A stretch of 64,000 bases of DNA from Syntrophomonas sp. (GTDB lineage Bacteria; Bacillota; Syntrophomonadia; Syntrophomonadales; Syntrophomonadaceae), in NCBI GenBank assembly GCA_016841425.1, contig JAENZE010000003.1, forward strand, positions 62,001-126,000, given 5' to 3'. Positions 19,948 through 25,669 of the stretch are shown in pieces. The notes under the pieces are model-generated. The model was given only the letters and a program-made list of their open reading frames with translations, ran no database searches and was not told the DNA's origin. A program made the position numbers and the translations under genes. Numbering within the stretch: the first letter of the stretch is position 1; each line of letters begins with the position of its first letter.

Positions 19948-22224
19948 TTGACTTCCATACAACAGGTATTGAAAAAATATTTTGGTTACAGTGAATTCAA
20001 ACCCGGGCAGGAGGCTATCATAAAAAACACTCTTCAAGGTCGTGAGTCGGTGGGCATAATACCTACCGGGGGAGGTAAGTCGTTATGCTATCAGATACCC
20101 GCCCTGCTGCTGCCCGGGATCAGCATTGTGGTATCACCGCTGATCGCCTTGATGAAAGATCAGGTGGACGCTCTCAACAATCTGGGAATCCCAGCCACAT
20201 ATATCAGTAGTATCCTAACTCCCCAGGAGATAAACCGGCGATTACAGCTAGTGTGCCAGAACCATTATAAACTTATCTACATAGCCCCGGAGCGCCTGAC
20301 ATCCGAATATTTTTCCCGACTGGCAGAGACAATCAAAATATCGCTTATTGCTATAGATGAGGCCCACTGTGTTTCCCAGTGGGGACATGATTTTCGTCCC
20401 AGCTATGCTGCCATTGCCCCCTGGATTGAGGCTATGCCATACCGGCCGGTTATAAGCGCCTTTACAGCCACCGCCAGTGACCGGGTAAGGGAAGATATAA
20501 TCCGTTTGCTTTCTTTGCGCAATCCCAGTATTCACCTAATCGGTTTCGATCGGCCAAATCTGCATTTCACAGTTATGAAAGGAACGGACAGAAAGAAGTG
20601 GGTGGAATATTATTTGAAGTCCCATGTCGAGCAGTCAGGAATCATTTATGCTGCTACCCGCAAAGAAGTTGATAGTATTTATGACTATATTAAATCCTGG
20701 GGGATTCCAGCCGGGAGATATCATGCCGGACTTAGCACCGAGGAGAGGAACCAGAGCCAGGAAGCTTTTCTGTATGATGATATCAAGGTTATGGTGGCCA
20801 GCAATGCCTTTGGTCTGGGGATCGATAAATCCAATATACGCTATATTATTCATCATAACATGCCCCGTAATCTGGAGTCCTATTATCAGGAAGCGGGCCG
20901 AGCCGGCCGCGATGGGGAAAAGGGGGATTGTATTCTTTTATACAGCCCGGCAGATATTCAGACCCACAAGTTTTTGATCGAGCAGACTACCTCATCTGAA
21001 GAGCGAAAAGCAGAAGAATACCAGAAGATGCAGGCTATGATAGATTACTGTCATACTACCCGCTGCTTGCGGCAGAGCATCCTGGAATACTTCGGAGAAA
21101 AAGATCTGCCAGAGAATTGCGGAAACTGCATTAACTGCACCCAATCCTATGAAAGCAGAGATATGACCATAGAAGCCCAGAAGATTTTCTCCTGCATCAT
21201 AAGAATGAATCAGCAGTACGGTATAAATCTGGTAGCATCCGTGCTCAAGGGATCTCAGAACAAGAGGATCCGAGAACTGCGACTCGATCAATTGTCTACT
21301 TATGGCATCATGAGCAATATGACCATAGGCGCTATAAGTGACTTGATCAATATGCTGGCAGCTGAAGACTATATCTATACTACTGCCGGTCAGTATCCAG
21401 TGGTTAAGCTCAAACAGAAGTCTCTCCCAGTGCTGAAAAGCCAGGCCCGGGTGATTCTGCGGATGCCTGCCCGGCCAGAAATAGTACAGGAGGACAGCCG
21501 GCTCTTCCAATCCCTCTGTGCTCTGCGCCGGGAAATAGCTCAAAAAGAACAGGTACCGCCTTACGTAATATTCCACGACCTAACTCTTAGAGAGATGAGT
21601 GCCCGGATGCCGCAGGACTATGACTCCATGCTGGCTATCAGCGGAGTAGGCGAGATAAAGATGCAGAAATACGGAGAGCAGTTTATGAATATAATTCGCT
21701 CCTATTCTTTAGAAGATAAGAGCAGCAGCCATATGGAGAGCGGTGAAAATGCGGCTCCGGTTAAAGAATCCAAACCAACCAAGCAACCTCAAGAGCCCAA
21801 ACAACCAAGTTATCTAATAAGCTGGCAGATGTATCAGACCGGGAGCACAGTGTCCGAAATAGCCAGACAGCGTAAATTGACCTATTTGACTGTACAGGAC
21901 CACATACTCCGGTCAGCCAGGGAAGGATTTACTGTAGACTGGAGAGAGATAGTGAGTGAGGAAGAAGAAGCATGTATCCTTAAAGCAATCCAGGAGGTTG
22001 GAAGCGAAAGGCTCAAACCTATCAAAGAGATGCTGCCCGAGGAGATAAGCTATTATGCCATAAAAGCGGTGATATGCCGGATGGAGCTGGATGGATGCAC
22101 TGACTCCAAGGATGCAGCAGATGAATTTTTTTTTTTCAAGCAGAAGACGGCATACGAGATAGTCCAGATTCAGGGAGAGTATTATGTACTGATAATGTAC
22201 ATCATCATGAGTAAAGATATATAA
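19948..22224 (+). CDS. recQ: ATP-dependent DNA helicase RecQ (3' end corrupted by adapter sequence)
   Basis: RecQ is a 3'-5' helicase in recombination and fork repair. The protein has Walker A in PTGGGKSLCYQIPA, the DEAH box AIDEAHCVSQWGHDFRPSY, motif VI QEAGRAGRDG, a zinc-binding C-rich segment (CRQSILEYFG ... CGNCINC) and an HRDC domain (about residues 510-590). A C-terminal helix-turn-helix domain follows near residues 630-710. The start is TTG at 19948 after GGGAGG. The last 33 residues cannot be trusted: an 11-T run and a 24-nt sequencing adapter lie at 22126-22160. Removing those 35 nt shifts the frame and gives a tail ending at the TAA at 22212-22214. Confidence 0.93.
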   Translation: MTSIQQVLKKYFGYSEFKPGQEAIIKNTLQGRESVGIIPTGGGKSLCYQIPALLLPGISIVVSPLIALMKDQVDALNNLGIPATYISSILTPQEINRRLQLVCQNHYKLIYIAPERLTSEYFSRLAETIKISLIAIDEAHCVSQWGHDFRPSYAAIAPWIEAMPYRPVISAFTATASDRVREDIIRLLSLRNPSIHLIGFDRPNLHFTVMKGTDRKKWVEYYLKSHVEQSGIIYAATRKEVDSIYDYIKSWGIPAGRYHAGLSTEERNQSQEAFLYDDIKVMVASNAFGLGIDKSNIRYIIHHNMPRNLESYYQEAGRAGRDGEKGDCILLYSPADIQTHKFLIEQTTSSEERKAEEYQKMQAMIDYCHTTRCLRQSILEYFGEKDLPENCGNCINCTQSYESRDMTIEAQKIFSCIIRMNQQYGINLVASVLKGSQNKRIRELRLDQLSTYGIMSNMTIGAISDLINMLAAEDYIYTTAGQYPVVKLKQKSLPVLKSQARVILRMPARPEIVQEDSRLFQSLCALRREIAQKEQVPPYVIFHDLTLREMSARMPQDYDSMLAISGVGEIKMQKYGEQFMNIIRSYSLEDKSSSHMESGENAAPVKESKPTKQPQEPKQPSYLISWQMYQTGSTVSEIARQRKLTYLTVQDHILRSAREGFTVDWREIVSEEEEACILKAIQEVGSERLKPIKEMLPEEISYYAIKAVICRMELDGCTDSKDAADEFFFFKQKTAYEIVQIQGEYYVLIMYIIMSKDI
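22126..22160 (+). other. Illumina P7 adapter preceded by poly-T (assembly artefact)
   Basis: Eleven Ts (22126-22136) are followed at 22137-22160 by all 24 bases of the Illumina P7 flow-cell oligo (CAAGCAGAAGACGG then CATACGAGAT). In reverse orientation this is the adapter end plus poly-A seen when a short insert is read through. It is translated in frame into FFFFKQKTAYEI, a peptide typical of this contamination. It is not biological sequence. Confidence 0.97.
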
Positions 22225-22264
22225 TAAGGAATGAGATAAGCAAGAACGAGTTTGAGGTGTATTT

Positions 22265-23650
22265 ATGAAGCTATGGAGTGGAAGATTTACCGCCAAAAGT
22301 GACCGATTGACCGAGGATTTTAATGCCTCAATCGCTGTGGACAGCAGAATGTATCGACAGGATATACAAGGCAGTATAGCCCATGCCCGAATGCTGGCCA
22401 AACAGGGAATCATTACTGAAGGAGAGAAAGATCAAATCATCAGGGGACTGATGGAGATACTCATCGAGATTGAAGCAGGTAAACTTGAATTTACCGTGGA
22501 AGCAGAAGATGTCCATATGAATATCGAAACCTTTCTGACCCAGAAGATAGGTGACGTAGGCAAGAAACTGCATACTGCCAGAAGCCGTAATGACCAGGTA
22601 GCATTGGATGTCAGATTATACCTGCGGGATGAGATAAAAGAGGTCAGGGAACTTATTCTGAACCTGCAGCAGGTCCTGCTGGATATGGCCGGTGACCATC
22701 TGGAAACAATCATGCCCGGGTATACTCATATGCAAAAGGCTCAGCCCTTGAGTCTGGCTCATCATCTGCTGGCCTATTTTGAAATGCTGCGCCGGGACCT
22801 GGATAGATTAGACGATTGTCATAAAAGAATGGATTATATGCCCCTGGGCTCAGGTGCACTGGCAGGCACCGGCTTCAACCTGGATAGAGATTATGTCCGG
22901 CAGCAGCTGGAATTCACCCATATAACCGGCAACAGTCTGGATGCGGTGAGTGATAGGGATTTTGCCCTGGAATTTTGCAGCTTTGCCAGCATTATGATGA
23001 TGCACCTGTCCAGATTTTCAGAGGAATTGATACTATGGTCCAGTGAAGAATTTTCTTTTGTGGAGATGGATGATGCTTTTTCCACCGGATCAAGCATCAT
23101 GCCCCAGAAGAAAAACCCGGATCTGGCTGAATTGGTGCGAGGAAAGACCGGTCGGGTCTATGGAGATCTGATCACACTTTTGACTATAATGAAATCACTG
23201 CCGTTGGCTTACAATAAAGATATGCAAGAAGATAAAGAAGCCCTATTTGATGCTATAGATACCGTCAAAAAATGTCTGCTGGTGTTTGCCCCTATGCTGC
23301 AAACCGCTCGTTTCAATACCGCCAACATGGCAGCTGCAGCCCGGGGTGGTTTTACCAATGCTACAGATTTAGCCGATTATCTGGCTGAGAAAGGATTGCC
23401 TTTCCGGGATGCCCATGCGGTGGTAGGAAAAGCAGTACTATACTGTATCGAGAAGAGTAAGATGCTGGAGGAAGTGAGCCTGGAGGAATACCAGAACTTC
23501 AGCCCTCTGATTGAGGATGACATATTCAGCTACCTGGATGTTAAAGCCTGTCTCGAACGCAGAAGAGTACCTGGCGGACCCGCCCCGGAAAGAGTAAGCG
23601 AAGCCCTGGAAGAAGCCAGCCGGTGGTTAAGGGGGATGTTAAGTGAGTAA
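22265..23650 (+). CDS. argH: Argininosuccinate lyase
   Basis: ArgH splits argininosuccinate to arginine and fumarate. The 461-aa protein begins [12 protein letters not shown] and contains the fumarase-superfamily signature [12 protein letters not shown] near residue 275 and [11 protein letters not shown] near residue 103. It has a TTTGAGGTG ribosome site and lies 41 bp after the recQ frame, separated from argCJBDFG by about 8 kb. The frame of a 91-aa hypothetical overlaps its last 8 bases. Confidence 0.96.
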
Positions 23651-24252: not shown

Positions 24253-24582
24253 ATGAGTATATTTGAGAAAGCCAGAGAACTTGGTCAGGAAATTAAGGAA
24301 ACCCAGGAGTTTAAAGAAATACAGCGAACCGGCCAGAACATAAAAGATAATCCCGATGCCCAACAGCTCATCCAGGATATCCAAACCATTCAGCAACAAC
24401 TGGAACTTGCCGAAAATGCAGGAGTTCAACCTGATCAGGAACATCTTGAAGAATTGGACAACATAAGATTAAAAATGGAGAATAACATTCTCATTAAGGA
24501 TTATATGAAAGCCCAGGAGGATTACAGCCGGCTGATGCAGGAAGTAAACAACACTATTAGTGAAGAGGTCAATAATTACTAA
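24253..24582 (+). CDS. YlbF/YmcA-family protein
   Basis: This 109-aa all-helical protein has the spaced hydrophobic pattern of Com_YlbF proteins (FEKARELGQEI, KEIQRTGQNI, LIKDYMKAQEDYSRLMQEVN). In Bacillus, YlbF, YmcA and YaaT form a complex that affects RNase Y activity and development. The ATG follows TGGAGG. The protein is soluble. This single paralogue stands directly before the tRNA-Thr locus. The family call is by pattern only. Confidence 0.65.
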   Translation: MSIFEKARELGQEIKETQEFKEIQRTGQNIKDNPDAQQLIQDIQTIQQQLELAENAGVQPDQEHLEELDNIRLKMENNILIKDYMKAQEDYSRLMQEVNNTISEEVNNY

Positions 24583-24702
24583 CTGGCACCAATTATTGGC
24601 GGAAGGAAACCGGATTATTTCCTGGTATACCTTGCTATATGAGCAGCTGGTCTTGACTCTTAATCCTGCACCTGCTATCATCAATTTGTCATAAAATAAT
24701 AA

Positions 24703-24777
24703 GCCGATGTGGCTCAGTGGCAGAGCAGCTGATTCGTAATCAGCAGGTCGGCGGTTCAAATCCGCCCATCGGCTCCA
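24703..24777 (+). tRNA. tRNA-Thr (anticodon CGT)
   Basis: The acceptor stem GCCGATG/CATCGGC, D-arm GGCTCAGTGGCAGAGC, anticodon arm GCTGA-TTCGTAA-TCAGC with anticodon CGT, T-arm GGCGG-TTCAAAT-CCGCC and encoded CCA are all present. It is the only complete copy here. Its 3' half is repeated at 27442-27487 and 30611-30656, so the gene is an integration target. Confidence 0.95.
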
Positions 24778-24790
24778 TAGAAAAGCAAGT

Positions 24791-24814
24791 AACCGCGCAG
24801 GATGCGCGGTTTTT
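24791..24814 (+). terminator. Terminator of tRNA-Thr
   Basis: AACCGCGC (24791-24798) pairs with GCGCGGTT (24804-24811), followed by Ts. The left arm is part of the 67-bp direct repeat shared with 27442-27508. Confidence 0.85.
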
Positions 24815-24817
24815 GGC

Positions 24818-24846
24818 GCCAACAAAGGGACGTTCTTTTTGTTGGC
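24818..24846. repeat. REP unit left of the RAYT gene
   Basis: Arms GCCAACAAA/TTTGTTGGC enclose GGGACGTTCTT. It begins just after the tRNA terminator and is the inverse partner of the unit at 25675-25704. Together they frame the transposase gene. Confidence 0.8.
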
Positions 24847-24898
24847 CTTTTTACACTGTTTTGTTATAATGGTAAAAAATAACTGGAGATTTAATAAA

Positions 24899-25669
24899 AT
24901 GAGGAAAACGCGAAAGCGAAGCGAAAGTGGAGTTTATCACGTTATTTTACGAGGAATCAACCGGCAAGATATCTTTTACGAGGATGATGATTATCAACGT
25001 TTTTTAGAAACTATAGTTAAGATGAAATCGGAGGATCAGTTTGCGGTTTATGGATATTGTTTAATGACGAACCATGTTCATCTGCTGGTTCGGGAAAACA
25101 TTGATACAATATCGCGTATCATGAGCCGGATCGGCACCAGTTACGCTTGGTGGTATAACCGTAAATATGGGCGAAGCGGTCACGTCTTTCAAGGTCGTTA
25201 CGGAAGTGAAGTCGTTGAAAACGACAATTACTTGTTAACTGTGATCCGCTACATACACAACAATCCGGTCAAGGCCAGGATGGTACAAAAACCAGAGCAA
25301 TATCGATGGAGCAGCATCCATGCTTATTATGGGGCAGGGGAGTATCCTAGTGGGTTAAGCGAAACAGCTTTCGTCCTAGGCATAATTCACCCGGACCGGG
25401 AAAGAGCAATGCTGGCCTTTCGTGAATTCATGAAGCTAGAAAATGAAGATAAATGTTTGGAAGATGAGATTAAGCACCGTAAGAGTGATAGCGAAATCAA
25501 AACAGAGATTGAAAAATTGATGAGCGGTGAACCCATCGGAAGGCTTCAAGGTATGGAAAAGGGAAAAAGAAATGAGATTTTAAGAAAAATCAAAGGAATC
25601 GACGGCGTATCACTCAGACAGATTTCCCGAGTTACCGGGCTCAGTGTGGATATTATTTTCAATGCCTAG
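24899..25669 (+). CDS. REP-associated tyrosine transposase (RAYT, Y1 family)
   Basis: This 256-aa HUH single-strand transposase has GVYHVILRGINRQ near the N-terminus, the metal-binding HUH motif in LMTNHVHLLVRE near residue 62, and the candidate catalytic Tyr in VIRYIHNNPVKARM near residue 118. A helix-turn-helix tail (SLRQISRVTGLSVDII) is present, as in longer RAYTs. The start at 24899 follows GGAG; the frame is open upstream to 24839 but without a ribosome site. It lies inside two inverted REP units, and related REPs occur elsewhere in the window. This enzyme type is known to cleave REP hairpins. Confidence 0.9.
   Translation: MRKTRKRSESGVYHVILRGINRQDIFYEDDDYQRFLETIVKMKSEDQFAVYGYCLMTNHVHLLVRENIDTISRIMSRIGTSYAWWYNRKYGRSGHVFQGRYGSEVVENDNYLLTVIRYIHNNPVKARMVQKPEQYRWSSIHAYYGAGEYPSGLSETAFVLGIIHPDRERAMLAFREFMKLENEDKCLEDEIKHRKSDSEIKTEIEKLMSGEPIGRLQGMEKGKRNEILRKIKGIDGVSLRQISRVTGLSVDIIFNA

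Follow-up and report, generated by a model that had tools for sequence, protein, structure and literature searches.

An Illumina flow-cell primer sequence at the 3' end of recQ in a Syntrophomonas genome and its very probable origin by mispriming at a P7-like site

Introduction

The recQ gene of Syntrophomonas sp. (assembly GCA_016841425.1) ends in a stretch of Illumina adapter that is a sequencing artefact and not biology. The stretch consists of a run of T followed by the complete P7 oligo, and the genome continues immediately behind it. Very probably, the flow-cell primer T10-P7 misprimed on a P7-like genomic site during sequencing and the consensus was overwritten at that place. The window analysed here is a stretch of 64,000 nucleotides from contig JAENZE010000003.1, and all coordinates refer to it unless another record is named.

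Results

A complete P7 oligo joined directly to the genome

Positions 22126-22136 of the window are eleven T and positions 22137-22160 (forward strand) are the complete 24-base P7 oligo, CAAGCAGAAGACGGCATACGAGAT, matched exactly; together they read TTTTTTTTTTTCAAGCAGAAGACGGCATACGAGAT (11 T plus 24/24 P7 bases). The initial annotation had reported this run within the recQ frame, and the match is indeed exact: it is the one P7 occurrence in the window against none expected from shuffled sequence. Searched by sequence pattern, the whole assembly (3.58 Mb in 27 contigs) holds this single copy, even with three mismatches allowed. P5, TruSeq (AGATCGGAAGAGC) and Nextera (CTGTCTCTTATACACATCT) sequences occur nowhere in the assembly, and P7 is absent from all of the other genomes of the phylum that were searched (397/397). 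The site lies deep inside a 284 kb contig, and neither an index nor a library adapter follows P7 on its 3' side. Instead, the genome resumes directly at 22161, from where the sequence aligns with the recQ-argH spacer of relatives.

The ten T at 22127-22136 (forward strand) match the spacer of the surface-immobilised P7 primer, as a ten-T spacer has been described for P7- and P5-type surface primers (PMC11123353). The eleventh T, at 22126 (forward strand), is read as a native base because the primer has only ten T and because a congener (L004) has GAG GAA TAA where the window has GAT GAA T; the recQ stop codon now lost would have begun with it. The oligos grafted by Illumina itself share the T10 spacer.

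The probable end of RecQ

The recQ open reading frame spans 19948-22224 and encodes 758 residues by reading through the adapter, where its translation runs from AADE into FFFFKQKTAYEIVQIQGEYYVLIMYIIMSKDI and a stop; the spurious peptide made from the adapter is FFFFKQKTAYEI. The credible coding part covers 19948-22125 (forward strand), which is 726 codons when counted from the TTG start that the ORF caller chose, and its product is 81-84% identical to those of the closest congeners (G001 and G003), a protein difference of 16-19%. Six Pfam domains score above their cut-offs, namely DEAD, Helicase_C, RecQ zinc-binding, RQC, HRDC and HTH_40, and all lie within residues 19-709, so that the protein is a RecQ helicase with a C-terminal HTH_40 (residues 621-709) placed ahead of the artefact. 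The alignment to relatives extends to residues 715-726. The remainder, residues 727-758 with the stop of the mechanical frame (22126-22224, forward strand), has no Pfam domain match and is missing from the aligned relatives; this 32-residue extension is spurious. The earlier view that the annotated tail is false and derives from Illumina contamination is thus supported, whereas its warning that any C-terminal domain call would be false was wrong, all domains lying before residue 727.

Deleting the 35 nt does shift the frame to a stop at 22212-22214, as had been calculated. The tail obtained in this way was taken for the real one, a reading rejected on the evidence of the relatives, which lack it and end RecQ at this very point (AGEE in L004, GDEQEK in L003 and IPNE in the third congener, L005, each followed by the stop). 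In the two closest relatives, L003 and L004 of the same genus, the recQ stop lies within a few codons of 22126. Since RecQ of the relatives ends at the junction, the native stop codon was most likely overwritten by the adapter, and the stop at 22212 is meaningless.

A P7-like native site in congeners

In the same two congeners, the orthologous spacers carry GCATATGAGAT or GGATATGAGAT, which end within a few bases of where the GCATACGAGAT of P7 ends. Compared with the last 12 bases of P7, these sites match at 10/12 and 9/12 positions, scores that random window positions reach with p < 0.00005 (fewer than 1 in 20,000) and p = 0.0004 (about 4 in 10,000), respectively. When the adapter was hidden from the aligner, 22161 fell within 2 nt (L003) or 6 nt (L004) of the base that follows GAGAT, and the correspondence of the sites is therefore independent of aligning the adapter itself. 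The P7-like site at the orthologous position of the two congeners points to annealing of the flow-cell primer to native sequence, and the last P7 bases in the window may largely coincide with what the genome had there. The strain's own genome also matches the last 12 bases of P7 with one mismatch at nine other places where no adapter is found; site similarity alone therefore does not decide where the artefact falls.

Parallel cases in public records

The same T10+P7, joined straight to genome without an index, occurs in public records, and five such cases have intact close relatives for comparison. All five (5/5) lie on P7-like native sequence, as the recQ site probably does to judge from its congeners, and in all five T10+P7 replaces an equal number of native bases, leaving the length unchanged. 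The intact relatives show this one-for-one replacement directly, whereas for the window the relatives are only congeneric. In Escherichia coli 2024CK-00535 (NZ_CP157243), 34 nt replace 34 native nt and all 22 differences in 601 bases (22/22) lie inside them, the native site being CCAGCAGAAGCCGTCAACGATAT. In the Klebsiella plasmid NZ_CP117742, the native sequence is CAACGCAGAAGACGTCATCGAGAT and 19/19 differences fall inside the adapter stretch. The katG gene of Shinella (CP132317) has TCAAGCAGAAGTACGGCAACAAGAT as its native sequence, and relatives of Klebsiella phage Marfa (MN044033) have CCGGCATACGAGAT. For these four sites, the P7-anchored score exceeded that of every one of 20,000 random positions. 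The fifth case is the D-series of Vibrio phages (D173, OZ196032), with native GTGGACGGCATCCGAGAT, in which the overwriting is graded among sister records, reaching differently far at the T run's 5' end. Equal length together with graded extent indicates that reads ending in P7 overwrote the consensus column by column, as opposed to the insertion of a molecule.

Among the Vibrio phages OZ196032, OZ196232, OZ195770, OZ195765 and OZ196201, the overwrite differs by one to three columns, and one record is intact. The related Klebsiella phage EI (MN106245) carries the index-less T10+P7 at the same place as Marfa, in the portal protein gene, which in EI is annotated as two pieces; EI was thus unfit as an intact comparison and other relatives were used for Marfa. 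For Proteus phage Saba the collection offers no close relative with an intact site, and this phage stands outside the five cases. In E. coli NZ_CP157243, the T10+P7 occupies 1731289-1731322 and alters a phage tail sheath gene; of the 5,426 complete genomes of E. coli, 9 have a T10+P7 match. The phage records G4500, KAW1E185 and SaPL were rejected as index-less cases, being index plus Nextera read-through. Read-through of the same composition (P7, index, Nextera) splits one gene of Escherichia phage G4507 (MK327946, 76684-76717), whose two parts both bear the annotation "baseplate hub subunit and tail lysozyme" and which is a single gene in related phages.

The recQ-argH spacer and its surroundings

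Upstream of recQ are genes for an anaerobic ribonucleotide reductase and a radical SAM protein, and downstream lies an intact argH for argininosuccinate lyase (22265-23650, forward strand; Pfam Lyase_1 and ASL_C2). The order recQ, spacer, argH is the same in the congeners. Strong conservation within the genus marks the spacer at 22190-22264 (TGATAATGTACATCA...AAGATATATAATA...GAGGTGTA), which probably holds the promoter and ribosome-binding site of argH. Its first part, at 22190-22225 (forward strand; TGATAATGTACATCA...AAGATATATAAT), is conserved in L003 and L004 and contains a -35/-10-like pair, TGTACA-18-TATAAT, a consensus match of which about one per region is expected by chance; this element, inside the false recQ tail, is probably the argH promoter. 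A terminator search between recQ and argH found none, and an Rfam search of the window returned only tRNA, with no RNA element in the recQ-argH spacer. The sole tRNA of the window is a tRNA-Thr (anticodon CGT) at 24703-24777, which is overlapped by a likely spurious antisense frame at 24469-24825 (RWADLNRRPADYESAALPLSH) and followed closely by an IS200-like Y1 transposase ORF at 24839-25669.

Discussion

How could a primer of the flow cell come to stand in an assembled gene? The 34 nt at 22127-22160 are identical in sequence to the flow-cell primer T10-P7. While clusters were being amplified, the 3' end of the surface P7 primer would anneal to a P7-like native site after recQ, probably one ending in CATAYGAGAT. 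Priming there would give truncated clusters in which the strand starts with T10-P7 and runs straight into the genome without an index. Reads toward that end would carry P7, as its reverse complement, plus poly-A, and would escape trimming keyed to the library adapter. If these P7-carrying reads came to dominate the consensus, the adapter would be written over native bases, the recQ stop codon among them, and the frame would extend into the argH promoter region, adding 32 false residues. We infer the flow-cell step, the dominance of such reads as the last step, the native T22126 and the position of the stop within the overwritten bases.

The last step is where the main alternative differs. A scaffold join or gap closure in the recQ-argH spacer through an adapter-tipped contig end, with about 16 nt or more of native sequence missing, leaves room for mispriming as the origin of the adapter, and it is a lesser but appreciable possibility. 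It draws on a landmark distance: from GA(T/G)GAA to the end of GAGAT there are 57 nt in both congeners and 41 in the window, which is 16 nt shorter, so that, in line with the earlier suspicion about the join, some native bases may be missing at the site. Against this stand a spacer length that varies in this family on both sides of the site, and the five parallels, in which the length does not change. By analogy with these parallels, in which T10+P7 replaces an equal native length, overwriting, though not necessarily one for one, is also a more likely reading of the site than the plain insertion assumed at first.

Ordinary adapter read-through, in which short inserts are read into the adapter and an untrimmed, adapter-bearing contig end is later joined, is improbable here, although it is the commonest route by which P7 enters public assemblies. 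Of 246 P7 copies in the genome and viral contigs retrieved, 233 are followed by an index and TruSeq or Nextera sequence, mostly at contig ends, and such contamination shares with the window a complete P7 after a T run. Read-through nevertheless requires an index and a library adapter between P7 and the genome; the window has neither, its site is joined directly to the genome deep within the contig, and no library adapter occurs elsewhere in the assembly. That the stretch truly belongs to the genome, as a P7-containing insertion of natural or cloned origin, deserves almost no credence: the reading frame does stay open through all 32 residues, but an exact 24-nt match with T10 is unexpected by chance, P7 (often with T10) recurs in phages, plasmids and genomes that are unrelated and come from many laboratories, and the relatives lack it and keep the conserved stop codon that it removes.

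Beyond this genome, the mispriming of the flow-cell primer would probably be an instance of a distinct and sequence-predictable class of error, in which the flow-cell primer misprimes at P7-like sites and index-less T10+P7 replaces the consensus there base for base. Such errors are not ordinary adapter contamination, and trimming keyed to TruSeq or Nextera could miss them. If it is real, it affects even genomes labelled complete, and the P7 sequence would allow one to predict where genes and stop codons are broken. Complete chromosomes of E. coli, plasmids and reference phages contain the same 34-mer, with genes altered or split as a result. Such places could be located by scanning for index-less T10+P7, and a search for P7-like sites would show which regions to inspect. 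In the papers searched, neither KQKTAYEI nor the string of T10 plus complete P7 occurs, and a search there on flow-cell mispriming and adapters inside assemblies returned nothing useful. The forecastability of index-less T10+P7 sites is a modest methodological point.

For the organism itself, the biological interest is low. In this genome, the recQ stop is lost, a false tail of 32 residues is added and the annotation wrongly treats the probable argH promoter as coding sequence; the end of its RecQ protein should be placed near residue 726.
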